Positions 49,610 through 63,927 of a stretch of DNA of 64,000 bases are shown one piece after another. The notes beneath the pieces were generated by a model that was not told where the DNA came from, did not search any database, and saw only the letters and a program-made list of their open reading frames with translations. Position numbers and translations under genes: made by a program. Within the stretch, counting starts at the first letter, position 1. Each line of letters begins with the position of its first letter. The stretch is from Lentibacter algarum (lineage in GTDB: Bacteria > Pseudomonadota > Alphaproteobacteria > Rhodobacterales > Rhodobacteraceae). The stretch covers positions 248,001-312,000 of the forward strand of contig NZ_CP158687.1 of the NCBI RefSeq assembly GCF_040580765.1. The letters are read 5' to 3'.

Positions 49610-50575
49610 CTACATGTTGCCCAACTGCGTGATGCCGTGAACCGAGGGCCCGACCAGAATGATCAGGAGCGGCGGCACCGTCAGCATCATTGTGGCAAGT
49701 GTCATCTTGGTTGGCAACTTGTTCGCGGCTTCTTCGGCACGCATCACGCGTTTATCGCGCATTTCGGCAGAATATACGCGCAACGCATCAGACATCGGCG
49801 TACCGAAGGCCTGAGACTGGTTCATCACCGTCACGAAGCTTGAGATATCTTGTGACCCGCAACGCTCGGACATGTCGTTGAGAACAGTTGATTTGTCTTT
49901 GCCTGCTTTCATTTCGTTGGCGACGATGTCAAGTTCGTCGGCCAGATCGGCGCAAGAGGGGCGCACTTCTTTACCGACGCGGATGATCGATTGTTCCATA
50001 GACTGACCTGCCTCGACGCAGACGAGCATCATATCAAGTGCGTCGGGGAAGCCGTTGGTCAAGGCTTCTTGACGCGTTTGCATGCGTTTGGTGACCCAAT
50101 ATTTGGGGAACATGTAGCCTAAGGCACCTGGTCCAAGGATATAAAGGATGGTTTGCTGCATGGTGGTTTGTTCGCCTTGCACGAACATCACAAAATACGC
50201 CACGCCGAGCACAAGGAGGCCGATGCCGCCCGCGAACTGGGCAAAGTGGAAGTAGCGCACGGAGTCTTTTCCGCGGTAGCCCGCCTGCATGAGCTTGAGC
50301 TTCATGCCAGCCAGTTCATCTTCGTCTTGAGGCTCGAGGAAGTTTGCGTATCGCTCCAGCTTTTCGTTGTGCTGGGCGGTGCGCAGTTTTTCTTTCACTT
50401 CGCGAGCGTTTGATGGCAGACGCGTGTCCCGCTTGAGCCGCTCCAGTGGATCGCGCTTTTCGGCCATGATCATCGAGATGGCGATCAGAACGAGGAAGAG
50501 CCCCAGAAGGCCCACTGCGATGAGCGGGCCAAACGGGCCTAGAGCCCCTGTGAGTGTATCGATCAGCTGGTCCAT
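49610..50575 (-). CDS. tadC: Tad pilus inner-membrane platform protein TadC
   Basis: A 321-residue type II secretion F-domain protein. Membrane helices lie at about 12-35, 105-145 (QFAGGIGLLVLGVAYFVMFV and an adjoining helix) and the C-terminus (MTLATMMLTVPPLLIILVGP). The F-domain has ALTNGFPDALDMMLVCVEAG QSMEQSIIRVG and ISSFVTVMNQSQAFGTPMSD ALRVY. TadC pairs with TadB to form the platform driven by the TadA ATPase. It follows tadB by nine bases. Confidence 0.94.
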   Translation of the reverse strand: MDQLIDTLTGALGPFGPLIAVGLLGLFLVLIAISMIMAEKRDPLERLKRDTRLPSNAREVKEKLRTAQHNEKLERYANFLEPQDEDELAGMKLKLMQAGYRGKDSVRYFHFAQFAGGIGLLVLGVAYFVMFVQGEQTTMQQTILYILGPGALGYMFPKYWVTKRMQTRQEALTNGFPDALDMMLVCVEAGQSMEQSIIRVGKEVRPSCADLADELDIVANEMKAGKDKSTVLNDMSERCGSQDISSFVTVMNQSQAFGTPMSDALRVYSAEMRDKRVMRAEEAANKLPTKMTLATMMLTVPPLLIILVGPSVHGITQLGNM

Positions 50576-50584
50576 GTCTGGCTC

Positions 50585-51553
50585 CTAAACCTTGATGTTT
50601 GTCAGCATGCGCATGACAAAGAGGTTAAGCGTGAGGAAGGCGGCCACAAAAATACAGGCCGGAATAAAGTAGGGGTGGTCCATAACCTCGTCATAATAGT
50701 CAGGCTTTGACACGTTGATCACGATCAGAGCGACAATGGGGAAGGACGAGAGGAACTTGCCCGACCATTGCGCCTCGGCGGTGATCGCTTTTACACGACG
50801 GAAGAGGCGGAAGCGGGCGCGGATCACTTGCGCAAGACCAGCCAGAATTTCGGCCAAGTTACCGCCTGATTGCTGCTGGATCGTTATGGCAACCGCCAGG
50901 AAGCGCAAATCCTGAAGGCCAATGCGCTCGGCCATATCCTTGAGCGCTTCACCCACATCGCGGCCATAGGCGCTTTCATCGGCGATGATGCCAAACTCTG
51001 TGGCGAGCGGGTCTTTGATTTCTTTGGACACGATTTGCACGGCAGAAGAAAACGGGTGACCCACACGCAGGGAGCGCACCATGAGCTCGACGGCGTCAGG
51101 GAGTTGTTCTTCGATCATCGAGATGCGCTTTTTGGCTTTGGAATTGACCCAGAAGAAGATCCCGCCGATGCCCATAATGGGCGCAATTGCGGCGCGGATT
51201 GCTAGGGTTGTGTCGGTTGCCAGTGTCAGGCCGAGAAAGGCGACAACGGAAACACCACCCATGAGCATAATCAACTGAATGGGCGTGAAGGCCAGTGCGG
51301 CTTTCTGGGCTTTGGACGCCAAAAGCGAATAGAGCGGAATGCCCATCGACTTTTTGTGCTGGTTCATCTCCTTGCGGAGTTTGTCCATCACATCGGCGCG
51401 CTTGTTGCCCTTCTGGATCATCTCGAGGCGGCGGTTCACTCGGCTGTTGAGCGAGATCGAGCGGCCAAAGAGCGTCAGATAGATGCCTTCGACGAGCACG
51501 AGCACGCCGATAAAGATCAGACCGTAAATCAGGGGTTCTGCGCTGATGGCCAT
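50585..51553 (-). CDS. tadB: Tad pilus inner-membrane platform protein TadB
   Basis: A 322-residue F-domain protein with an N-terminal helix (PLIYGLIFIGVLVLVEGIYL), a central pair around 90-145, and a C-terminal helix (FIPACIFVAAFLTLNLFVM). F-domain motifs: MIEEQLPDAVELMVRSLRVG HPFSSAVQIVS, GRDVGEALKDMAERIGLQDL and LAVAITIQQQSGGNLAEILA GLAQVIRAR. It is the partner of TadC. It lies five bases after the tadA stop in the same operon. Confidence 0.95.
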   Translation of the reverse strand: MAISAEPLIYGLIFIGVLVLVEGIYLTLFGRSISLNSRVNRRLEMIQKGNKRADVMDKLRKEMNQHKKSMGIPLYSLLASKAQKAALAFTPIQLIMLMGGVSVVAFLGLTLATDTTLAIRAAIAPIMGIGGIFFWVNSKAKKRISMIEEQLPDAVELMVRSLRVGHPFSSAVQIVSKEIKDPLATEFGIIADESAYGRDVGEALKDMAERIGLQDLRFLAVAITIQQQSGGNLAEILAGLAQVIRARFRLFRRVKAITAEAQWSGKFLSSFPIVALIVINVSKPDYYDEVMDHPYFIPACIFVAAFLTLNLFVMRMLTNIKV

Positions 51554-51558
51554 GGGGC

Positions 51559-53028
51559 TTACTCCGCTGCGACTGGTTCAAAGAGGGTTGCGGGCAGATC
51601 ATAGCCCCAGAGGCGGAAGCGCTCGGAGAAGTGCGAGCGAACGCCTGTGGCTGTAAAGTGACCGATGATTTTGTTGTCGGGTGTGAGGCCGACACGCTGG
51701 AAGCGGAAGATTTCCTGCATCGAAATAACGTCGCCTTCCATGCCGGTGATCTCGGTGATCGAAGTCATGCGGCGGGAGCCGTCTTGCAAGCGTGAGGCCT
51801 GCACGATCAGGTTGACCGCCGAGGAAATCTGGCTGCGTACGGCCTTGAGCGGCATTTCGATCCCGGCCATGGCGACCATGTTTTCCAGACGCGAGATACC
51901 ATCGCGCGGGTTGTTAGCGTGGATCGTTGTCATGGAGCCGTCGTGGCCTGTGTTCATAGCTTGAAGCATGTCGATAACTTCTTCACCGCGCGTTTCGCCC
52001 ACGATGATGCGGTCGGGGCGCATCCGAAGGGCGTTTTTTAGGCAGTCGCGGGGGGAGACTTCGCCTTTGCCTTCCACGTTGGGTGGTCGGCTTTCCATAC
52101 GGCCCACGTGGGTCTGCTGAAGCTGAAGTTCGGCTGTGTCTTCGATTGTCAGGATGCGTTCGTCATCGGCGATGAAACTTGAAAGCGCATTGAGCGTGGT
52201 TGTTTTACCTGAGCCTGTCCCGCCTGAGACGATCACGTTGAGGCGGGTTGAGACGGCGGCCTGAAGATAGGCGGCCATCTCTTCAGAAAAGGCTCCGAAG
52301 TTCACCAGTTCGTCGATGCCAAGTTTGTCTTTTTTGAATTTACGAATGGAGACGAGCGAGCCGTCAACCGCGATGGGCGGAACCATCGCGTTAAACCGTG
52401 AGCCGTCTTGCAAGCGCGCATCAACGTAGGGATTGCTTTCATCGACGCGTCGGCCCACGGCGGAAACAATCTTGTCGATGATCCGCATCAGGTGCTTTTC
52501 GTCTTTGAAAGTCACATCCGAGAGCGTCAGCTTACCGTTGCGTTCCACGAAAATCTGCTTTGGGCCGTTTACGAGAATGTCGTTTACCGTGTCGTCTTGC
52601 AGAAGGGTTTCGAGCGGGCCGAGACCTTTGACTTCATCAAAGAGTTCTTTGTTGAGCGTGTTTCGGTCATCGCGGTTGAGCACGACGTTTTTGCCAGCGA
52701 GCACCTCATCGGTGATGGCGTTGATTTCGGCGCGCAGATCACTTTCTGTTGCGGTGTCGAGCGCGGCCAGATTGAGGCTGTCGAGAAGCTCGCGGTGAAG
52801 CTCAAGTTTGAGCTCGCCAATGCGCTCGCGGCGCTTGGCTTCTTTATCAATGGGTGCGGCCTGTGCAGGCGTGCCTGATGTGGGGCGGCGCAGGCTTGTT
52901 TTGACTTCTGGGGCAGGTGCGGCGGCTGCTGGAGCCGGCGCATTGGCCGTTGCTTTTTGGGGGAGGGCCGTAACGCTGGCACCTTTGGCGGCAGCAGCGG
53001 GGCTGTCTTTTTTGTAGCGTGAAAACAT
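51559..53028 (-). CDS. tadA: Tad pilus assembly/secretion ATPase TadA (CpaF family)
   Basis: A 489-residue hexameric ATPase that drives pilus extension, and in some Tad systems also retraction. A proline/alanine-rich N-terminus (about 85 residues) precedes the N-domain ([20 protein letters not shown]). Then come Walker [20 protein letters not shown], the Asp box [20 protein letters not shown], Walker B-like [20 protein letters not shown] and the His box [13 protein letters not shown]. The downstream block [20 protein letters not shown] is also typical. It lies 12 bp after tadZ. Confidence 0.96.
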
Positions 53029-53040
53029 TGTAGCGCCCCT

Positions 53041-54288
53041 TTATGCAGCTTTGGCTTCAGACTGGCCGAGCGCGTGAAGCTCGCTGGCCAGTTTGGCGAT
53101 TTCTTTGCGCAGCGGATTTTTTGCGGCAGAGCTGGCGAGGGGCAAACCGTGATCTGCACCCTGTGTGACGGGCTTGCCGCCATCCGAAAGGACCACTTCG
53201 ATCTTGATGTCGAGGCTGTCGGCCATGCGCTTTATACGCGATTTGCCGTTGAGGTCGGTGAACTTTGGTCCGCGGTTGAGTACATAACGCAGCTTGTCGG
53301 CGGGAAGATCCTCGGCTTGAAGCGCGCGCACGAGGCGGAGTGTGTTTTGAGCCGAGCGCATATCAAGCTCAAGCGTGGCGAAATAGACCGCCGCTTTGCG
53401 CAGGACCGCCTCGGACCATTGTACAAGGGTCTTGGGCATATCAACGATCACGTAATCAAAGTGTGTTGCGGCCATATCAAGCACGCGGGTCACATCGTCT
53501 GATGTGATCAGGTCAAGCGGGATCATATCGGACGGGGACGTGAACACGCTGAGGCGGTCTTCAAAGCCCACCAGTGCGTATTTGAACATTTCGTCGTCCA
53601 TGCTTTCGGTGTCTGTCCAGAGCTCAAAAACGGGCTCAAGGCGGGGCAAATCCAAATAGGTAGCAATTGAACCAAACTGCAGATCGAGATCGATCAGGCA
53701 GACTTTGGGCGGATTTTTCTTATCCACTGTGGCCAGTTCCCACGCGAGGTTGACGGCAAGAGTTGTGGCCCCTGTTCCGCCTGCAAGGCCGTGGGTTGCT
53801 ATGATGACGCCTTCTTTTTTGCCAGGCCCAGCTGCGACGGGGGCTGCTGCCACTGAGACAGGGGCAGCTGGTGCAGGTGCGGGCGTATTGAGGCGCTCGA
53901 TGGCGGCGTGAAGCTCGCCTTCGGGAAGGGGATAGGGAACAAATTCATCGGCACCGTCGCGCAAGAGCTGGTGCAGCGCAGTGGGCGTCACATCTTCGGC
54001 GATGAGGACGACATTGATGCCCTTGGATTTGGCGGATTTTATGATCTCGCTGAGGAATACAGTTTTGTCTTCGTCCTCGGCATCAAGCGCCATAGCGATA
54101 AATTCAAGCGCCTTTGCTTCGGGCTGTTCAAAGAAATGACGGGCTTCTGCGAATCCGATATCGCCCCAAGCCTCACCGAGGGCGCTCTCCATGTCTTCGA
54201 TAAGAAGATCGAAGTTTTGAACATCACGACTCACCGTGACGGCCTTGAGCGGGGGGAGCTCTTGGAGTGTTTTATCCGAATGCGTCAT
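53041..54288 (-). CDS. tadZ: Tad pilus localisation protein TadZ/CpaE (ParA-like ATPase with receiver-like domain)
   Basis: A 415-residue protein with an N-terminal receiver-like domain of about 130 residues (NFDLLIEDMESALGEAWGDI, GINVVLIAEDVTPTALHQLL). An alanine/proline linker precedes the ParA/MinD-type domain: GVIIATHGLAGGTGATTLAV NLAWELA (deviant Walker A), KVCLIDLDLQFGSIATYLDL and FDYVIVDMPKTLVQWSEAVL. TadZ places the pilus machine at the cell pole. Starts at 54288 and 54303 are both possible; GAGGAATGAGG supports the former. Upstream lies a 240-bp gap with a terminator for the preceding gene, so tadZABCD may have its own promoter. Confidence 0.92.
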   Translation of the reverse strand: MTHSDKTLQELPPLKAVTVSRDVQNFDLLIEDMESALGEAWGDIGFAEARHFFEQPEAKALEFIAMALDAEDEDKTVFLSEIIKSAKSKGINVVLIAEDVTPTALHQLLRDGADEFVPYPLPEGELHAAIERLNTPAPAPAAPVSVAAAPVAAGPGKKEGVIIATHGLAGGTGATTLAVNLAWELATVDKKNPPKVCLIDLDLQFGSIATYLDLPRLEPVFELWTDTESMDDEMFKYALVGFEDRLSVFTSPSDMIPLDLITSDDVTRVLDMAATHFDYVIVDMPKTLVQWSEAVLRKAAVYFATLELDMRSAQNTLRLVRALQAEDLPADKLRYVLNRGPKFTDLNGKSRIKRMADSLDIKIEVVLSDGGKPVTQGADHGLPLASSAAKNPLRKEIAKLASELHALGQSEAKAA

Positions 54289-54490
54289 TGCCTCATTCCT
54301 CATATATGAGCGTTCAGGCGGGCTTTTTGCACCGATTATCCTGCCGCTCGGCGCCTTGCTCTACGCAAGACACACAACTGCTTTTGAGGGAATATTGCTT
54401 TAGACTGGGGCAGAATTGGGGCCAAAACCCTGCATTTCTGCGATTTGTTTCCGAGATTGGGGGAATGTTTCGAGGCTTGTGCCTCTGGGC

Positions 54491-54520
54491 AAAAGGCAGA
54501 GCTGGGGGCTGCTCTGCCTT
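54491..54520 (-). terminator. Terminator between the OmpA-like gene and tadZ
   Basis: A perfect 10-bp stem, AAGGCAGAGC (54493-54502) with GCTCTGCCTT (54511-54520), loop of eight. On the minus strand it lies ten bases after the OmpA-like stop and ends in a short T-run (CTTTTG). It would split the Tad locus into at least two transcripts. Confidence 0.7.
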
Positions 54521-54529
54521 GAGATTTTA

Positions 54530-55201
54530 TTATTCGGTTGTGGCCAGATCGCTGCCAGTAATGCCTGTCAGCTCGGTCTTGGCTCCAGCACCTGTCACGT
54601 AGTCGCGATAGATAATTTGAGCGTATTTGCCATCCAGAACCGACTGATGCGCGCGCACAAAACCTGACACTTCGGTCACGGCGCGGCGATTGCGCCGTTC
54701 GCGGCCTTCGGTGGCAACGAGTGGCTGCGTTTCGCCAAGCGATGAGACAGCCTCGAGGCGGTCACGGCTGATGCCCTGTGTCGACAGGAAGGCAACGACC
54801 GCTTTGGCGCGGCGTAGACCAAGGGTTTTATTGTAGCCGTTTGACCCAGGTGCGTCGGCGTGGCCGAAGACACGGAACGTGATTTCGGGGAACTGACGGA
54901 TCCAGTTGGCTTGCTCGCGCAGCGCGTCTTGTGCGCCAGCGTCAAGCTGCGAGGAATTGAAGGCGAAGTGAACTGTTGTGATCACTTCGGCTGCAAATCT
55001 GTTTGCTAAATCAATGGCATAGGACTTTTCGCCTGACATGATCTGAGTATTGTTCATGGTTGCGTTGCCGAAGTCCTGACCGCCCAGAAGCACACCAGCT
55101 TCGCTTTCAAAGCGCATCATGGCTGGGTTGTTTGAGCAGGCGGTCAGCGCGGTGCAGGCCGCCAGAGCGACCAATGCGTTTCGCGTTATTCGTTTTTTCA
55201 T
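54530..55201 (-). CDS. OmpA-family outer-membrane lipoprotein of the Tad locus
   Basis: A 223-residue lipoprotein (MKKRITRNALVALAACTALTAC) whose C-terminal half is an OmpA peptidoglycan-binding domain: TVHFAFNSSQLDAGAQDALR, FRVFGHADAPGSNGYNKTLG and RRAKAVVAFLSTQGI. The final extension is AHQSVLDGKYAQIIYRDYVT. OmpA-like lipoproteins occur at this position in alphaproteobacterial Tad loci, where they may anchor the secretin to the cell wall. ATG 55201 is preferred (GGTGGGG upstream) over 55213. It starts 17 bp after the secretin stop. Confidence 0.9.
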   Translation of the reverse strand: MKKRITRNALVALAACTALTACSNNPAMMRFESEAGVLLGGQDFGNATMNNTQIMSGEKSYAIDLANRFAAEVITTVHFAFNSSQLDAGAQDALREQANWIRQFPEITFRVFGHADAPGSNGYNKTLGLRRAKAVVAFLSTQGISRDRLEAVSSLGETQPLVATEGRERRNRRAVTEVSGFVRAHQSVLDGKYAQIIYRDYVTGAGAKTELTGITGSDLATTE

Positions 55202-55218
55202 AAACCCCACCATGTCCC

Positions 55219-56640
55219 TTACTCCATCACATAACCATAAGAGCCGTTGAAGTCTTGTTTTGCAACCTCGCCGACAACACCGCCTTGTTCACCCGTAGTG
55301 GCAACGCGGCCGTGCAAGAACAAGTCTTTCTCGGACGGTGGGCGCACACGGTCTGTTGGAAGCGCGAGGGCTTCGCCGCGGGTGGGTGTGACAAGGTGGG
55401 CTGTGATGATAATCACAAGTTCAGACTGTTGGCGGTTGTAATCGGCGCTACGGAAGAGCGCACCGAGGATCGGCAAGTCACCGAGCCAAGGCACTTGGCC
55501 TGCACTGTCGCGGAAGTCATCTTGCAGAAGACCTGCGATTGCGAAGCTTTCACCATCGCGCAGCTCGACTGTTGTTTTGGTTTCGCGGCGCTTGAAGGCA
55601 TCTACAGTGAAGTTGTTGAACGTTGCGCCATTGTTCGGGTCAATCGATGATACTGCCGCTTCCAGCTCGAGGTTGATGAGATCGCCATCCACCACGCGGG
55701 GGATAAAGTTCAGCTCGACACCGAAGGGCTTGTATTCGACGGTGACAGAGCCGCTGTCTTGGGCCACAGGAATTGGGTATTCGCCACCCGCGAGGAACTT
55801 GGCCTCTTGGCCTGAAAGTGCCGTTAGGTTTGGCTCGGCCAATGTGCGCACGACGCCTTTTGTCTCGAGAGCTTCGAGTAGGACACCGACTTGGACGGAG
55901 CCTGCATTGAAACCAAATAGCATAGCGCCGTTGTTTTCATTGATGCTGGGCACTGCGCCACCAAGGGCTGTCGTGATACCGCCTGAGTTGTTTGTTGTGT
56001 TGGTACCGCCGTTGAGGCCAAGATTGCCGCCTGCGGCGCTGCCATTGAGTGCCAAAGATGCGCTAAGCGATTTGGACACTGTGCGCTGCATTTCGGCAAA
56101 ACGTACTTTCAGCATCACTTGCTGGATGCCGCCGACAACCATCAGGTTTGAGACCCGCTCGGGCGCGTAGCGCTCCGCTAGGTCAAGAGCGCGTTGGAGA
56201 CGCGCCGCGGAAGAAACAGTACCGGAGAGGACAATGCCATCATTGGCGGTGCGCACTTCGATTGTCTCGCCGGGAAGAATTTGGCGCAGACGCTCTTTGA
56301 ATTCGGAGATGTCAGAGGCGACGCGCACATCAACGTTGGTGATGAGGCGGCCATTGGCATCAAGAAGGGTAAGTGTGGTCAGGCCAGGAGCCTTGCCGAG
56401 CACGTATATAGTGCGATCTGACAGTGACGAGATGTCTGCAATGGCTGGGTTTGCGATGCTCAGCTCTGCGAAGGGCTGATCACTTTCGACCACGACGGCG
56501 CGGTTCATCGGGACTTCAAGCGTACTTGATGTGCCACGTTTTACCACGCGCAGGGACTCTGCCACGCTAATATTTGGAACTGTCGCAAATGCTAACGCAA
56601 AGCTTGCGACGGTTGCTTTTAGAATTCTGCTCAATTTCAT
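55219..56640 (-). CDS. rcpA: Tad pilus outer-membrane secretin RcpA/CpaC
   Basis: A 473-residue secretin that forms the outer-membrane pore of the pilus. A Sec signal peptide (about residues 1-27) precedes the N0-like domain (GTSSTLEVPMNRAVVVESDQ), a BON-like domain (GETIEVRTANDGIVLSGTVS), and the secretin core. The core carries GVLLEALETKGVVRTLAEPN LTALSGQEAKFLAGGEYPIP and the C-terminal RRETKTTVELRDGESFAIAG LLQDDFRDSAGQVPWLGDLP ILGALFRS. The AGAGGCAGG element precedes the ATG. It is separated from cpaB by 217 bp that include a large hairpin. Confidence 0.95.
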   Translation of the reverse strand: MKLSRILKATVASFALAFATVPNISVAESLRVVKRGTSSTLEVPMNRAVVVESDQPFAELSIANPAIADISSLSDRTIYVLGKAPGLTTLTLLDANGRLITNVDVRVASDISEFKERLRQILPGETIEVRTANDGIVLSGTVSSAARLQRALDLAERYAPERVSNLMVVGGIQQVMLKVRFAEMQRTVSKSLSASLALNGSAAGGNLGLNGGTNTTNNSGGITTALGGAVPSINENNGAMLFGFNAGSVQVGVLLEALETKGVVRTLAEPNLTALSGQEAKFLAGGEYPIPVAQDSGSVTVEYKPFGVELNFIPRVVDGDLINLELEAAVSSIDPNNGATFNNFTVDAFKRRETKTTVELRDGESFAIAGLLQDDFRDSAGQVPWLGDLPILGALFRSADYNRQQSELVIIITAHLVTPTRGEALALPTDRVRPPSEKDLFLHGRVATTGEQGGVVGEVAKQDFNGSYGYVME

Positions 56641-56799
56641 TGTGACCTGCCTCTCTGATCACATTATTTTATGGGCTTTTTGCCCTTTATTATCGCGACC
56701 ATGCTTTAGTTTGGTTTTTTTTGCAAGAATCAAAGGTTTCAAGGAGTTTGTTTATGTTGATCTAGTGCAACAGACCCTCAGTACACCCATGATACTAAG

Positions 56800-56827
56800 A
56801 TGGGGCCCTGCCAGCGCTGGACCCCAT
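56800..56827. other. Hairpin between cpaB and rcpA
   Basis: ATGGGG (56800-56805) pairs with CCCCAT (56822-56827), and the intervening sequence contains the palindrome CCAGCGCTGG (56811-56820). No T-run follows on either strand. It lies in the 217-bp spacer between cpaB and the secretin gene, where an internal promoter or processing site may lie. Nothing else recognisable is in the spacer. Confidence 0.5.
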
Positions 56828-56857
56828 GATGATGTGTTTTTGAGTATATCTACCACA

Positions 56858-57706
56858 TTAGTTTGTGCATGGGATCTCGATTTCAACGACTTCCGCGCCG
56901 CGGCGTGTACGGATGGTACAGACCTCTTTTTCTTGAATGGCTTGCGGTGTTTCCGCTTCCACCAGTCCGAGAAGGGCGTTTTGGTCTACTTCGATCACCT
57001 CATCTGTGCGGGCATCGCCAGAGCCGACAAGCGCCAGCGAGAGCTGACCTGTTGACTGTGCTTGCGCAAGTGATGCGACTTGTTGGGCGGACGCTGCGAC
57101 TGTCACTGTACGGGCAATGCCTGACTTTTCGACTTCCTCATTTGCAGATTGGTCGATCGCAATCAGTGGGAGGCTGGACTGGATCAGCTTTGTGACTTCG
57201 GCGTTGCGCTGGTTGCTTTGGACACGGCCTGTCCAATAAACATCTACTGAGTGGCCAGGACGTAGGAAACCTGAGACGCCTGAGGATACGTTGACTTCGA
57301 TTGTGAAGGCGCGTTCACCTGGCTTGAGCAGGGATGTGAGGCCTGCTGGTTCGCCTGCTGTTGTGAGTTTGACAGCGAGAATGGCTTCACCTGGCTCGAT
57401 CGAGCGGAGCACAGAGCGGGGCTTGTCAAAGCCTTGTGGGAATAGCTCAGCCGGAACTGTGAAAGCGCCTCCTGGTACGGAGTTGCGCGGCCATTGAACA
57501 AGGCGCACATCTTCGGCGGCGAGGGTGTCACCATATTTGACTGACTTTTTGGAAACGAAAATTTCGACCAGATCGACTGCGCCATTCTTTGCTTCTGCCT
57601 CTGCAAGAGCGCTGCGCGTGTTATCAATGTAGTCTTTCGCCATGTACACAGCAAAGCCCGCAAGAGCGATGCCTGCAATGAGTACCAATCCGAAAACGGC
57701 TCGCAT
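56858..57706 (-). CDS. cpaB: Flp pilus assembly protein CpaB/RcpC
   Basis: A 282-residue periplasmic protein anchored by an N-terminal helix (VFGLVLIAGIALAGFAVYMA). It has a SAF domain (VEIFVSKKSVKYGDTLAAED VRLVQWP, PRSVLRSIEPGEAILAVKL) followed by the RcpC/CpaB segment ALTVEVN-type (RAFTIEVNVSSGVSGFLRPG HSVDVYW). It probably links the inner-membrane platform with the secretin. ATG 57706 with TTGAGGA upstream begins the anchor; the frame to 57859 runs through the pilin terminator and is rejected. Confidence 0.94.
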   Translation of the reverse strand: MRAVFGLVLIAGIALAGFAVYMAKDYIDNTRSALAEAEAKNGAVDLVEIFVSKKSVKYGDTLAAEDVRLVQWPRNSVPGGAFTVPAELFPQGFDKPRSVLRSIEPGEAILAVKLTTAGEPAGLTSLLKPGERAFTIEVNVSSGVSGFLRPGHSVDVYWTGRVQSNQRNAEVTKLIQSSLPLIAIDQSANEEVEKSGIARTVTVAASAQQVASLAQAQSTGQLSLALVGSGDARTDEVIEVDQNALLGLVEAETPQAIQEKEVCTIRTRRGAEVVEIEIPCTN

Positions 57707-57850
57707 GATGTATTCCTCAAATTTGTTATGGCGTGGGCTAAAGACCCCGCCTTGGCATTGCTCTAGCTTGTGAATGTGGCGAGAAGGTGGTGGGGCTGCG
57801 GTGATATCGTGAAAACGAAGCTGGGCTTTTGAGTGCTGTGCGTCGTTTTG

Positions 57851-57882
57851 ATAAAACAAAACCGCCGGAGGCTCCGACGGTT
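57851..57882 (-). terminator. Terminator between the Flp pilin genes and cpaB
   Basis: On the minus strand ACCGTCGGAG pairs with CTCCGGCGGT (arms 57872-57881 and 57861-57870, one mismatch), followed by TTTGTTTT. Partial termination here would make much more pilin mRNA than assembly-protein mRNA, a common arrangement in Tad loci. Confidence 0.8.
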
Positions 57883-58729: not shown

Positions 58730-59593
58730 ATGCGGGCCCTATATGTAATGAGTCTTGTCGCACTTGTAAGTGCGCTCCCTGTGTTGGCTGATGAGCCAGC
58801 GCAGTTTCGCGAATTCACCTTCAAAAAGGTGAAGCCGCCGAAGGCTGGTTCGAAGAACAGGATCAATATTCAAATCGAAGCCGCCGATCTTGAGCGCCAG
58901 CGCGGCAAGAGCAGCAGCCTTGTACAGCCAGCGGCGCCCAAGCTTGCCGAGCCCAAAGTGGCGAACGTGCCGCCCCCAACGCAAAAGACAGGCGCGTACG
59001 CGTGGTTTTGGGACAAGATTTCTCCACACATGGATGAGAGTGCGCCGGGGCGGCTTGCGCCCGCACTTGTCAGTGTAAGCAATGGGCCTGGCGGTAAGAC
59101 AGTGAGCACACCGAGGCTTGAGACCTTGCGCGGGATTGTTGAGACCCGGGGCGCTGATATCTTGAAGGCGACAATCGGAACGGAAGTGTCGCCTGCGCTT
59201 GTACTGGCCGTGATCGCGATTGAGAGTGGAGGACGGGTTGACGCTGTGAGCAGCGCTGGTGCGCAAGGCTTGATGCAGCTTATGCCTGTTACTGCGGAGC
59301 GCTTTGGCGTGGCGGATGCGCTTCAACCTGCCGAGAATATAAAAGGCGGTGTCGCCTATCTTGATGTGCTGATGAAGCAGTTTGACCGTGACCCTATTCT
59401 TGTGCTGGCAAGTTACAACGCGGGGGAAAATGCTGTTAAGCGCGCAGGCGGTGTGCCTGACTACGCCGAAACGCGAGACTATGTGCCCAAGGTCCTTGCC
59501 GCGTTTAAAACAGCGAAGGGGCTTTGCCTCACGCCACCCGAGCTGGCGAGTGATGGCTGTGTCTTTAACTTCAAGATGGCGAAAGCGGATTGA
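58730..59593 (+). CDS. Lytic transglycosylase, SLT domain
   Basis: A 287-residue exported enzyme: signal peptide (about residues 1-20, MRALYVMSLVALVSALPVLA), a proline-rich linker to about residue 130, then the SLT domain with catalytic E165 in LVLAVIAIESGGRVDAVS. GAQGLMQLMPVTAERFGVAD, KGGVAYLDVLMKQFDRDPIL and LASYNAGENAVKRAGGVPDY AETRDYVPKVLA follow. An alternative start is ATG 58748. Its position between the Tad locus and the prenyltransferase is ambiguous. Local wall opening for pilus assembly is possible, but it overlaps the prenyltransferase start as TGATG, so it is translated with that gene. Confidence 0.92.
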   Translation: MRALYVMSLVALVSALPVLADEPAQFREFTFKKVKPPKAGSKNRINIQIEAADLERQRGKSSSLVQPAAPKLAEPKVANVPPPTQKTGAYAWFWDKISPHMDESAPGRLAPALVSVSNGPGGKTVSTPRLETLRGIVETRGADILKATIGTEVSPALVLAVIAIESGGRVDAVSSAGAQGLMQLMPVTAERFGVADALQPAENIKGGVAYLDVLMKQFDRDPILVLASYNAGENAVKRAGGVPDYAETRDYVPKVLAAFKTAKGLCLTPPELASDGCVFNFKMAKAD

Positions 59594-60804
59594 TGGGTTT
59601 GACTGTTTTTGCGCTGAAGGGTGGTTTGCTGCGCACGAGCCCGAGGCTTGAGTACTTTTGGGGCGCTTTGGGCGTAAATCCAAAAGCGGCTCTGGCCAGT
59701 CTGTTGACCCAGAAAAAGCCAGAAGATGTGAGCTTGCGCGTAGATCTGCTGCCGCTCAACGAAGATGTGCTTTCACAGATTGAGGCACTGAAGTCGGCCG
59801 ATAAGGCTGTAGCGCTTTCGACACGGGATTACCCCGAGCTTGCGACCGCGCTGGCGGCACAGCTTGGAATTGCGCTGAGTGAGGCCAAAGGCGAGACGCG
59901 GCCCCAGAGCTGGAACGTACGAGCTTTGCTCAAGGCGATCAGGCCCCATCAATGGGTGAAGAACATTCTGTTGCTTATGCCGCTTTTGGCGGCGCATCGG
60001 TTTGACAGCGGATCACTGCTGCTGGCACTGCTCGGCATCGTGGCTTTTTCGGCGGCAGCTTCTTCTATATATGTTGTGAACGATCTTGTGGACTTAGAGG
60101 CCGACCGCCTGCACCCCAAGAAATGCAAGCGCCCTTTTGCCAGCGGAACTGTACCTCTTACTGTCGGAATGCTTACGGGGCTTGTGCTTGTGAGCGTGGC
60201 GCTGGGCGTGGGCGCATACCTTGGGCCTAAGTTTCTGGCGATTACGCTGCTCTATGTTTTTGTGTCGGTCGCTTATTCTATGCGGCTCAAGAGGATGCGC
60301 TGGGTCGATATTATTTTGCTCGCCTCTCTCTATTCTGTGCGCGTGGTGGCAGGCGCGGCCGCGGCGGGTGTGGCGGTTTCGGGGGCGATGCTGTTTTTCA
60401 TCTTCCCTGTTTTTCTCACACTCGGCGCGGTGAAGCGGCTCACCGAGCTCACATTGGCGACAAACGACGAGCGTTTGCCAGGACGCGGCTATGGGCGACC
60501 TGATCGGGGCAAGCTTCTCAACTTTGCTGTTGTGAGCATGATCTCTGCGCTGCTGATCTTTTTTATATATTCACAGAGTGCGCAGGCGATGGCACTTTAT
60601 CCTGATCGCTGGTTTCTCTGGCTGGCCATTCTGCCGCTGGCGGCTTGGCTCTTCCGGATGGTACGGCTTGGCTATTATGGCAAGCAGGATTATGATCCGA
60701 TTGTCTTCGCCTTGAGCGACAAGCGCGGGATCGGTTTGATCCTTATCACGCTGTCGCTGATGTTTTATGCGGCAGGGCTTTGGGCGCAGTGGTTTGGCTT
60801 TTGA
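59593..60804 (+). CDS. UbiA-family prenyltransferase, decaprenyl-phosphate phosphoribosyltransferase-like, with degenerate HAD N-terminus
   Basis: A 403-residue protein. Residues about 112-403 form the eight- or nine-helix UbiA domain: LLKAIRPHQWVKNILLLMPL, the Mg-diphosphate motif NDLVDLEADRLHPKKCKRPF (NDxxDxxxD at 163-171), and YSMRLKRMRWVDIILLASLY. These match Rv3806c-type enzymes that join phosphoribose to a polyprenyl phosphate. Residues 1-100 look like a shortened HAD domain (VDLLPLNEDVLSQIEALKSA DKAVALSTRD); the DxDGT nucleophile region is replaced by VFALKGGLLRTSP and the distal catalytic part is missing. ATG 59593 overlaps the transglycosylase stop. It converges on the DprE2-like gene. 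Confidence 0.88.
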   Translation: MGLTVFALKGGLLRTSPRLEYFWGALGVNPKAALASLLTQKKPEDVSLRVDLLPLNEDVLSQIEALKSADKAVALSTRDYPELATALAAQLGIALSEAKGETRPQSWNVRALLKAIRPHQWVKNILLLMPLLAAHRFDSGSLLLALLGIVAFSAAASSIYVVNDLVDLEADRLHPKKCKRPFASGTVPLTVGMLTGLVLVSVALGVGAYLGPKFLAITLLYVFVSVAYSMRLKRMRWVDIILLASLYSVRVVAGAAAAGVAVSGAMLFFIFPVFLTLGAVKRLTELTLATNDERLPGRGYGRPDRGKLLNFAVVSMISALLIFFIYSQSAQAMALYPDRWFLWLAILPLAAWLFRMVRLGYYGKQDYDPIVFALSDKRGIGLILITLSLMFYAAGLWAQWFGF

Positions 60805-60810
60805 GCCACC

Positions 60811-61560
60811 TTAGATCGACATTTTCTTAAAGATTGGCTCGGGGATTGTGCGGATCACGAACATGACCAGCTGCCAGATACCTGCCGTGTAGACAATATT
60901 GCGCTTCTTGCTGAGGCCCTTAAGGATGTCGTCGGCCACGCCTTCGGATGTTGTCATGAAGGGTTGTTTGCCAAGGCCCCATGTCATGGCGGTATCGACT
61001 GGGCCGGGCTTCACTGTCATCACATGAGCGCCTGAGCGACCCAAGCGGTTGCGCAGGCCTGACAGATAGGTCGCAAAGCCCGCTTTGGCCGCGCCGTAGA
61101 CGTAGTTGCCAAGGCGGCCGCGGTCGCCCGCGACGGAGCCGACGCCGACGATTGTTCCGCCGCCGCGCTCTTCCATGAGGGGAGCGAGCCTTTGCAGGAA
61201 AGTTGCTGGCCCTGTAAAACTGTCGGCGATCACGCCTTCGATGAGCGATGGATCCATGTCAATCGCGCTCTGATCGGGCATGGAGCCGAGGAAAACAGCG
61301 CAGGAGAGCTGGCCTTCTTGGCCGCTGGCGTGGGCGAGGATCGGTTTGAATGTCGTGGCGTTGCGCGCATCAATCGGGAAGCTGGCGACTGTGCTTGCGC
61401 CGCGCGCGGAACAATCGGCGGCGAGGCGAATGAGGTCGTCTTTGTCGCGGCCCGTCAGGATGAGGGCATGGCCCTGCTCGGACAGGCGGCGGATGAAGGC
61501 ACGAGCCATAGAGGAGCTTGCGCCGAGGATGATCCATGTGTCTTTGCGTGGCTCTGTCAT
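60811..61560 (-). CDS. SDR-family reductase, DprE2-like
   Basis: A 249-residue short-chain dehydrogenase. The nucleotide loop is WIILGASSSMARAFIRRLSE (the GxSSxxA form typical of DprE2-like proteins). The catalytic residues are S142 in VGSVAGDRGRLGNYVYGAAK and Y155/K159, with VKPGPVDTAMTWGL afterwards and a hydrophobic C-terminal segment (IWQLVMFVIRTIPEPIFKKM). In mycobacteria DprE2 reduces the keto intermediate made by DprE1 to give decaprenyl-phosphoryl-arabinose. It starts one base after the DprE1-like stop, and this adjacency is the main support for the assignment. Confidence 0.88.
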   Translation of the reverse strand: MTEPRKDTWIILGASSSMARAFIRRLSEQGHALILTGRDKDDLIRLAADCSARGASTVASFPIDARNATTFKPILAHASGQEGQLSCAVFLGSMPDQSAIDMDPSLIEGVIADSFTGPATFLQRLAPLMEERGGGTIVGVGSVAGDRGRLGNYVYGAAKAGFATYLSGLRNRLGRSGAHVMTVKPGPVDTAMTWGLGKQPFMTTSEGVADDILKGLSKKRNIVYTAGIWQLVMFVIRTIPEPIFKKMSI

Positions 61561-61561
61561 G

Positions 61562-62869
61562 TCAGATGCTCCTCAGGCCTAGGCGGCGGGTCAGATCGGT
61601 TTCAAACTTGTGCTCGGGGTCGGCCTTGTTGACCTCTTCCGCCCATATGGCCCAATTGGGATACATGGCTTTGGCCTCGGCTTCGGTGGCAAGGCTGTCC
61701 TTGGCGAAATAGATACGGCCGCCTGCTTCCAGAGTCGCAGCATTGAGCTTTTTGATCAGCTTGCGCGCCTTGTCGCTTTCGCGAAAATCGACGGCCAGCG
61801 TGTAGCCTTGCATCGGAAATGACATCATGCCAGCGGCATCAGTACCGAGGCGTTTGAGCACGGCGAGGGGCGAGGCGAGGCCGCTTTCTGCGATCATCTC
61901 GACCATGGCGCGCAGTTCTGGGAGCCTGTCATCAGGCAGAACACATTGGAACTGGTGAAAGCCGCTTTTGCCATAGAGCCTGTTCCAGTTGTGGATTTTA
62001 TCGAGCGGGAAGAAGAACTCTTCGAGCGGCTTTATACGGGTCTGGCCGCCGTCGCGGATGCGCAGGTAATAGGCTTTGTTGAAGCCCGAAACCATGGCTT
62101 TGGACAGGGTGAAGCGGGGGAAGTTGAACGGCACGGATTTGCTCCCGCCTTTGGGCGCGCTTTGCGGGCGAACGGCCGTGGAGCGGGCCTCTTCGACAAT
62201 ACCGCGGCCAAGGTTTTTGCCTTTGGCGGTGCAATCGAGCCAGCCGACAGTGTAGCGGGCCTGCGAGCTGGAGAGCAGGGCGATGTGCTCCTCCCAGTTT
62301 TCAGCGCGTTGCTCGGTAACTTCCATGCCCTCGCCTTCACAGCGCGACATCTGGAGCGTGGCGGAGGCGATGATGCCTGTCTGGCCGAGGCCACCGACTG
62401 TGGCCTTAAACAGAGCGGCGTTGCGCTTGGGGGTGATGGTCTTGGGCTTGCCTGCGACCATGAGTTTGATTGCGGTGACATGGTTGCCAAAGCTGCCATC
62501 AACGTGGTGGTTCTTGCCGTGCACGTCCATGGCGATACAGCCGCCGATGGTGGCGAAGCCTGTTCCCGGCATAACCGTTGGCATCCAGCCGAGGGGGGCG
62601 AAGAGGCGGGCCAGCTCGCCCACAGGAACGCCGGCTTCGGCCTCGACAAGACCAGTGGTGGCGTCAAAGCTCAGGATGCGGTCAAGCCGTGTCATATCGA
62701 CGGCTGCACCTGTGCTGTTGAGGCAAGCATCACCATAGGAGCGCCGCGCGCCAATGGCGGGATGTGCATAGAGCTCGGCCAGAGCGGCGGCACGCTCGGG
62801 GCGGGCAAGCTCGCCTTCGGCGGAGAGCGCGCGGCCCCAGCCTGTGTAGGATTGGGTGTTCCAGAGCAT
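61562..62869 (-). CDS. FAD-binding oxidase, DprE1-like (decaprenylphosphoryl-ribose 2'-epimerase subunit type)
   Basis: A 435-residue VAO-family flavoprotein. RRSYGDACLN (Y45), MPGTGFATIGGCIAMDVHGK NHHVDGSFGNHV (H117), KSGFHQFQCVLP (Q306, Q308), FPMQGYTLAVDF (A359) and GGRIYFAKDS (K390) line up with Y60, H132, Q334, Q336, C387 and K418 of Mycobacterium tuberculosis DprE1, with identical spacing from memory. It would oxidise C2' of a polyprenyl-phosphoryl pentose. The active-site cysteine targeted by benzothiazinones is alanine here. The ATG shares a base with the flippase stop (TAATG). A different polyprenyl-sugar substrate is possible. Confidence 0.9.
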   Translation of the reverse strand: MLWNTQSYTGWGRALSAEGELARPERAAALAELYAHPAIGARRSYGDACLNSTGAAVDMTRLDRILSFDATTGLVEAEAGVPVGELARLFAPLGWMPTVMPGTGFATIGGCIAMDVHGKNHHVDGSFGNHVTAIKLMVAGKPKTITPKRNAALFKATVGGLGQTGIIASATLQMSRCEGEGMEVTEQRAENWEEHIALLSSSQARYTVGWLDCTAKGKNLGRGIVEEARSTAVRPQSAPKGGSKSVPFNFPRFTLSKAMVSGFNKAYYLRIRDGGQTRIKPLEEFFFPLDKIHNWNRLYGKSGFHQFQCVLPDDRLPELRAMVEMIAESGLASPLAVLKRLGTDAAGMMSFPMQGYTLAVDFRESDKARKLIKKLNAATLEAGGRIYFAKDSLATEAEAKAMYPNWAIWAEEVNKADPEHKFETDLTRRLGLRSI

Positions 62870-63861
62870 TAGGTGGCTCCTTTTGCATTAGATTTTGCCT
62901 CGGCATAGGGGAAGATACCAAGGCCGATGAGAATGGCGAACCAGAGGGTGGTCAGGCGGATGACGGCTGTTGCGGGCAGGGCAACTTCAAGCGGGATACC
63001 CTCGAGGAGAAGCAGGCCGACCATGGCGGCCTCTGCGCCTCCGATGCCGCCTGGTGCCCCTGTGAGCCCGCCTGCAAGCGTTGAGAAGACAAATATCAGT
63101 ACGGCGAGCCAGAAGGAAATATTGGCGTCCATCCACGTGAGCAGAAGCCAGAAGGCGTAGCCCTCGGCGAGCCAGCCTATGAGGCCCAGAATGGTGGCAA
63201 GCGTGAGGATATCGGCGCGGGAAAAGGCCTTGAGTGATCGCGCGGCGCGGCGGACGCGTGCCATGAGGCGGGGGAACAGGCCTGTGCTGTGATAAAAGAG
63301 GCCTGCGCTAACCGAGAGGAGCGCGGGGCGTGTGACGAGAACTGCACCCGCGAAAGCAAGCAGCGTTACAGGAATGGCAAAGCGGATCATCGCGCCTGAA
63401 AAGAGCAGGCCGACGGCGAGAATGAGAGCCATGGCAGCCAAGTCAGAGGCGCGATCAACGAGCACGAGGGGGGCTGTGCGTTCAAAGCTCCAACCTGTTT
63501 CGCGCTTGATCCAGCGCATGCGGATCAGCTCTCCCACACGGCCCGGCGTGACGGACATGGCGAAGCCACCAAGAAAATGACGGACGTTCTGGGCAAGATG
63601 CGTTCCAATGCCGAGGCAGCGGGTGAAAGCGTGCCACCGGACGGCGCGAAAGAGGTAATTGACGAGGGAGAGTGCCAGAAGGATGCTGACCTCGAGAAGC
63701 GAGAGCTTTCGTAACTGTGTCAGGGTTTCGTCCCAGCCTGTTGCCGCTGCCAGCGAGGCAAGACCTGTGAGGACAAGCACAAAAAGACCGCTCAAAAGCG
63801 CATAGTCGCGCCAGCGATGAAAGCCCGTGCTCTTGGGCGCTACTGGAAAGTCACTGCTCAT
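62869..63861 (-). CDS. Lysylphosphatidylglycerol synthase TM-region / flippase-like membrane protein
   Basis: A protein of about 330 residues with eight or so membrane helices and the UPF0104/AglD pattern: YLFRAVRWHAFTRCLGIG, GGFAMSVTPGRVGELIRMRW, TLAGGLTGAPGGIGGAEAAM and GLLLLEGIPLEVALPATAVI RLTTLW. It lacks the soluble MprF lysyl-transfer domain. Relatives are thought to move or handle lipid-linked sugars, so here it is a candidate flippase for the polyprenyl-phosphoryl pentose made by the neighbouring enzymes (inference). First gene of that operon. Starts at 63861, 63867 and 63888 are all possible; 63861 has GGG at a usable distance. Confidence 0.85.
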   Translation of the reverse strand: MSSDFPVAPKSTGFHRWRDYALLSGLFVLVLTGLASLAAATGWDETLTQLRKLSLLEVSILLALSLVNYLFRAVRWHAFTRCLGIGTHLAQNVRHFLGGFAMSVTPGRVGELIRMRWIKRETGWSFERTAPLVLVDRASDLAAMALILAVGLLFSGAMIRFAIPVTLLAFAGAVLVTRPALLSVSAGLFYHSTGLFPRLMARVRRAARSLKAFSRADILTLATILGLIGWLAEGYAFWLLLTWMDANISFWLAVLIFVFSTLAGGLTGAPGGIGGAEAAMVGLLLLEGIPLEVALPATAVIRLTTLWFAILIGLGIFPYAEAKSNAKGAT

Positions 63862-63927
63862 TGTCATTGCCCGAAGGTATAGGGGCAAAATAGGGCAATT
63901 TTATGGATTTGTCGCTAAGTTTGGCCA

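Follow-up and report, generated by a model that had tools for sequence, protein, structure and literature searches.

A predicted polyprenyl-phosphoryl arabinofuranose cassette with a decayed phosphatase domain in Lentibacter algarum and related Rhodobacteraceae

A probable arabinose-lipid cassette in an alphaproteobacterium

Does a Gram-negative bacterium make a lipid-linked pentose donor like that of the mycobacterial decaprenyl-phosphoryl arabinose (DPA) pathway? The question is raised by a 64,000-nucleotide stretch of the Lentibacter algarum genome (the window; positions 248001-312000 in a genome that forms one contig of 3.28 Mb), in which a UbiA-family gene lies beside genes for a DprE1-like oxidase, a DprE2-like reductase and a flippase-like membrane protein. 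An earlier note, made from the letters alone, had proposed that these genes produce and flip a pentose-phosphoryl-polyprenol, and all four genes are where it placed them. Our analysis points to a known kind of polyprenyl-phosphoryl pentose cassette, most likely one for arabinofuranose, whose distinguishing points are a decayed phosphatase domain, a flippase-like protein of a different type and an unlinked candidate transferase.

Searches against solved structures place the UbiA protein closest to the mycobacterial decaprenyl-phosphate phosphoribosyltransferase Rv3806c (best match 8j8j, E 2.8e-27), the relationship suggested earlier, and it combines the Rv3806c-like fold with the NDxxDxxxD and RxxE motifs of PPPRS enzymes. 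The predicted activity is transfer dependent on phosphoribosyl pyrophosphate. The protein scores 146 bits against the best NCBIfam decaprenyl-phosphate phosphoribosyltransferase model (under the equivalog cut-off of 207) and 330.8 bits against PRK08238 (UbiA family prenyltransferase; cut-off 351). The oxidase matches DprE1 best among solved structures (21gq_A, E 2.2e-74, residues 8-432), while xylitol oxidase reaches only 2e-6 over residues 9-175. Among the positions compared, it is identical to DprE1 at Y60, H132, K134, W230, Q334, Q336, K367 and K418, with N385 and Y314 replaced and Ala at the position of mycobacterial Cys387, the residue to which benzothiazinones bind covalently. Similarity over the full length and the catalytic residues (from search and residue map, not a tree) set the protein with DprE1 and apart from the alditol oxidases, at 376.2 bits against the NCBIfam DprE1 model (under the equivalog cut-off of 500). 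The reductase, likewise, is DprE2-like by its best solved match (21gq_C, E 1.8e-22; next SDR 1e-13) and its YxxxK motif (YGAAK at 155), scoring 152.8 bits against NCBIfam DprE2 (under the equivalog cut-off of 250) and higher, 246.2 bits, against PRK07102 (cut-off 267). The flippase-like protein belongs to PF03706 (8.2e-43) and TIGR00374 (90.3 bits, above the cut-off of 43.2) and occupies the place held by SMR or MATE flippases in other systems; its family and operon position suggest that it may flip the donor lipid.

The flippase-like, DprE1-like and DprE2-like genes follow one another in that order, tightly spaced, on the minus strand, with UbiA on the opposite strand (Table 1). The start codon of DprE1 shares bases with the stop of the flippase gene (TAATG), and the DprE2 start lies one base past the DprE1 stop, in line with the coupling of these genes noted earlier. 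A lytic transglycosylase gene, absent from the gene set first described, overlaps the UbiA start with its stop by one base (TGATG).

Table 1 Features of the cassette and its neighbour in the window.
Feature	Coordinates	Strand	Basis or remark
SLT-family lytic transglycosylase	58730..59593	+	PF01464 1.2e-25; neighbour, outside cassette
UbiA-family polyprenyl-phosphate phosphoribosyltransferase (predicted)	59593..60804	+	start TTG 59590 or ATG 59593 possible
N-terminal HAD phosphoribose-phosphatase remnant in UbiA	59593..59892	+	about 100 residues; alignments and pattern count
DprE2-like SDR reductase	60811..61560	-	21gq_C, NCBIfam DprE2, YGAAK at 155
DprE1-like FAD oxidase	61562..62869	-	21gq_A, NCBIfam DprE1, residue map
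PF03706 flippase-like membrane protein	62869..63888	-	start 63867 or 63861 possible; PF03706, TIGR00374

Decay of the phosphatase domain fused to UbiA

Citrobacter ORF15 is a fusion of UbiA with a HAD phosphatase domain that has a catalytic Asp (PMC11127046). The same fusion is present in relatives of the window UbiA. In the window protein itself, FALKGGLL replaces the D-x-D motif and the second half of the HAD domain is deleted, which separates it from the ORF15 type; the earlier note had overlooked that this N-terminus is a decayed phosphatase domain. D-x-D is retained in 23/30 UbiA homologues, the seven without it being the window protein, four from the same genus and two from other genera. 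In the first set (n = 12, the window and 11 loci), seven proteins keep the motif, and the window and same-genus proteins lack both the motif and the second half. In the second set (n = 18), 16 keep it, and those of G092 and G074, the two top-scoring UbiA matches in the family-genome search, show the same motif replacement and deletions as the window UbiA. The frames of this second set were chosen by NDxxDxxxD and their RxxE was checked by a loose pattern over 60 residues, so that neither motif is independent evidence there. Both G092 and G074 retain DprE1 and the candidate transferase GT87b described below, indicating that the pathway genes persist where the phosphatase has decayed. We take the alignments to mean that the built-in phosphatase is dead in the window's lineage, and precedents for phosphatase loss are found in a noeN deletion (PMC5080398) and in the ORF15 D18A variant (PMC11127046).

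Distribution across Rhodobacteraceae

In the Rhodobacteraceae the four genes form a cassette between the lytic transglycosylase and SCOT/topA. The cassette and the transglycosylase were complete in 10 of 12 relatives' loci fetched around DprE1 matches, the exceptions being L036, without UbiA on site, and L038, without the transglycosylase and flippase. In the genome containing L036 (G013), a distant UbiA is encoded at another place (L199), its HAD motif intact. A wider survey covered the 80 best matches among named places, of which there are at least 568; some of these loci are cut by contig ends, and they included 55 near loci with DprE1 of at least 50% identity. Here DprE2 was present in 55/55, the flippase in 48, the transglycosylase in 43 and UbiA in 36, while DprE2 and the transglycosylase occurred with no UbiA match in 12/43 (L072, L073, L075, L079, L081, L084, L094, L101, L102, L106, L117 and L118). 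More distant DprE1 relatives were observed in other Proteobacteria and other phyla (25 loci, L121-L146 except L131), with DprE2 in 22 and UbiA in 13.

Among 120 family genomes, DprE1 was found in 39, UbiA in 48 and both in 37. Sixty-seven DprE1-negative genomes carry CpaC, and we sampled 15 of them, mostly the top CpaC scorers: the transglycosylase still stood beside cpaB in all 15, SCOT and topA were also there in 13 (one of the other two being contig-cut), and none of the 15 stretches gave a match to any of the four cassette genes. Together with the cassette-bearing loci, this suggests that the four genes are gained and lost together, with the transglycosylase remaining in place. Its persistence without the cassette had gone unremarked in the earlier note. 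A literature search at the level of listings turned up no report of such a pathway in Rhodobacteraceae.

A distant candidate transferase

The genome search for a GT-C arabinosyltransferase that the earlier note had called for gave a candidate outside the window, for which an arabinosyl donor is proposed. This protein, GT87b, is a GT87 protein with a GT-C fold encoded far from the cassette (G000:C1:76329-77540), next to genes that we take to be carB and aspS; of 19 stretches around its homologues, 18 contain a carB-like frame and 15 an aspS-like one. GT87b occurs in 19/120 family genomes, 18 of them DprE1-positive, and in the nineteenth carrier (G041) DprE2 and UbiA lie at the start of a contig. 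With G041 counted as positive, GT87b is present in 19/40 cassette-positive and 0/80 other genomes; without this reassignment the counts are 18/39 and 1/81 (p 9e-10). A profile search with A2 returned the same 19 genomes, just 14 candidates being scored in many genomes, and any PF09594 protein was found in 24/120 genomes, 19 of them DprE1-positive. GT87b is possibly an arabinosyltransferase.

Comparison of the GT87b sequence with solved structures and NCBIfam gave no match. The other GT87 protein (L005), in 7/120 genomes, was not clearly associated with DprE1 (p 0.15) and was set aside, and neither PMT_2 (PF13231) nor PMT (PF02366) matched in the window's genome. No GT-C protein was recognised beside the cassette, no search being aimed at GT136, TfpW or EmbA-type genes. 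Likewise, no shared GT-C protein was recognised in the 10 scanned of 28 unlabelled frames rich in transmembrane segments near far DprE1 loci (one PMT_2, L132, and one MFS among the 10), and a literature search on AftC/GT87 found no paper.

Alternative explanations

We consider it probable, from homology, motifs, cassette behaviour and co-occurrence, that the cassette makes and exports polyprenyl-phosphoryl D-arabinofuranose (Araf). Since the fused phosphatase domain appears dead, another cellular phosphatase is proposed to take off the 5'-phosphate; DprE1 would then oxidise and DprE2 reduce C2, which would convert ribose to arabinose, the PF03706 protein would flip the arabinose lipid, and a GT-C enzyme, possibly GT87b, would put arabinose on an envelope glycan or protein. 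The product might instead be another pentose lipid (e.g. a ribose, 2-keto or 5-phospho form), the reason being either a dead built-in phosphatase or an epimerase pair that uses another substrate. The loss of phosphatase motifs (7/30 homologues), the replacement of N385 and Y314 in the oxidase and the use of ribofuranose (Ribf) and xylofuranose (Xylf) by Citrobacter (PMC11127046) all weigh in this direction and against an Araf product. We nevertheless regard such a product as unlikely, given the joint occurrence of DprE1 and DprE2 in every near locus, the eight conserved oxidase residues and the presence of DprE1/E2 homologues in Araf-containing systems (PMC11127046).

The role of GT87b is more evenly poised. 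There is about an even chance that its donor is polyprenyl-phosphoryl mannose or another lipid and that its co-occurrence with the cassette merely reflects shared ancestry: its nearest solved fold is by far the mannosyltransferase PimE, it sits at one inherited site, it was not found in 21/40 cassette-positive genomes, and the association ignores phylogeny, all of which count against an arabinosyl role. This has to be set against its absence from all 80 cassette-negative genomes and the fact that the 19 carriers represent 19 different genera. The pilus offers another possible target. Positions 49610-57859, beside the transglycosylase, hold what we take to be Tad (Flp) genes (tadC/tadB-like, cpaF, cpaE, OmpA-like, cpaC and cpaB), and cpaB lies beyond the transglycosylase in 34/39 near loci with at least 5 kb past DprE2. 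That arabinose decorates the Tad pilus, and that the cassette adjoins the tad genes for that reason, would suit this arrangement and the D-Araf known on type IV pilin in Pseudomonas paraeruginosa (PMC12369383), but seems improbable: CpaC occurs in 104/120 genomes, 37/39 DprE1-positive and 67/81 DprE1-negative (p 0.055), the transglycosylase and cpaB stand together without the cassette in all 15 sampled DprE1-negative genomes, and no cpa match was found in any of 15 far loci of at least 15 kb. Gene order suffices to explain the Tad neighbourhood, which is probably inherited; the Tad pilus as a dependent partner of the cassette was rejected on the weak CpaC association.

A broader scenario, which we offer tentatively and think rather doubtful, is an arabinosylation system that Rhodobacteraceae gain and lose, whose donor cassette cooperates with a distant, fixed-site GT87 arabinosyltransferase and of which one lineage has kept the pathway minus its fused phosphatase. 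If it held, GT87 would include an arabinosyltransferase active in Gram-negatives. With the cassette, polyprenyl-phosphoryl arabinose chemistry would reach about one-third of the sampled family genera (39/120), a testable transferase and flippase would be named for the arabinose donor pathway, and the window's lineage would offer a natural case of a dephosphorylation step apparently passed to another enzyme.

Comparison with known systems

The polyprenyl-phosphoryl pentose pathway in a Gram-negative proposed by the earlier note has good support from homology, motifs and co-occurrence, but its novelty is less than implied, precedents being the Citrobacter pentofuranose side chains (PMC11127046), rhizobial noeCHOP (PMC5080398) and pilin arabinosylation in Pseudomonas paraeruginosa (PMC12369383). 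With the mycobacterial DPA pathway (Rv3806c, Rv3807c, DprE1, DprE2 and Rv3789) the cassette shares the UbiA phosphoribosyltransferase and the DprE1 and DprE2 homologues, with most catalytic residues kept; it differs in the HAD remnant on UbiA, in having PF03706 for the SMR flippase and in the Ala at the Cys387 position. The P. paraeruginosa pilin D-Araf system (PSPA7_6245-6251, TfpW) is likewise Gram-negative and DPA-type with a GT-C transferase, but its target is type IVa pilin, where an envelope glycan or protein is proposed as the acceptor for the window cassette. The three-component pentofuranose system of Citrobacter youngae O1/O2 (ORF15, ORF14 and ORF12; GT136) resembles it in the HAD-UbiA fusion of intact relatives and in the logic of lipid-linked pentose, flippase and GT-C enzyme, whereas the window has a decayed HAD domain, DprE1/E2, and PF03706 in place of MATE. 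Rhizobial Nod-factor arabinosylation (noeCHOP/noeCNHOP) also relies on alphaproteobacterial DPA-type genes, and its partly dispensable phosphatase noeN parallels the phosphatase loss in the window's lineage.
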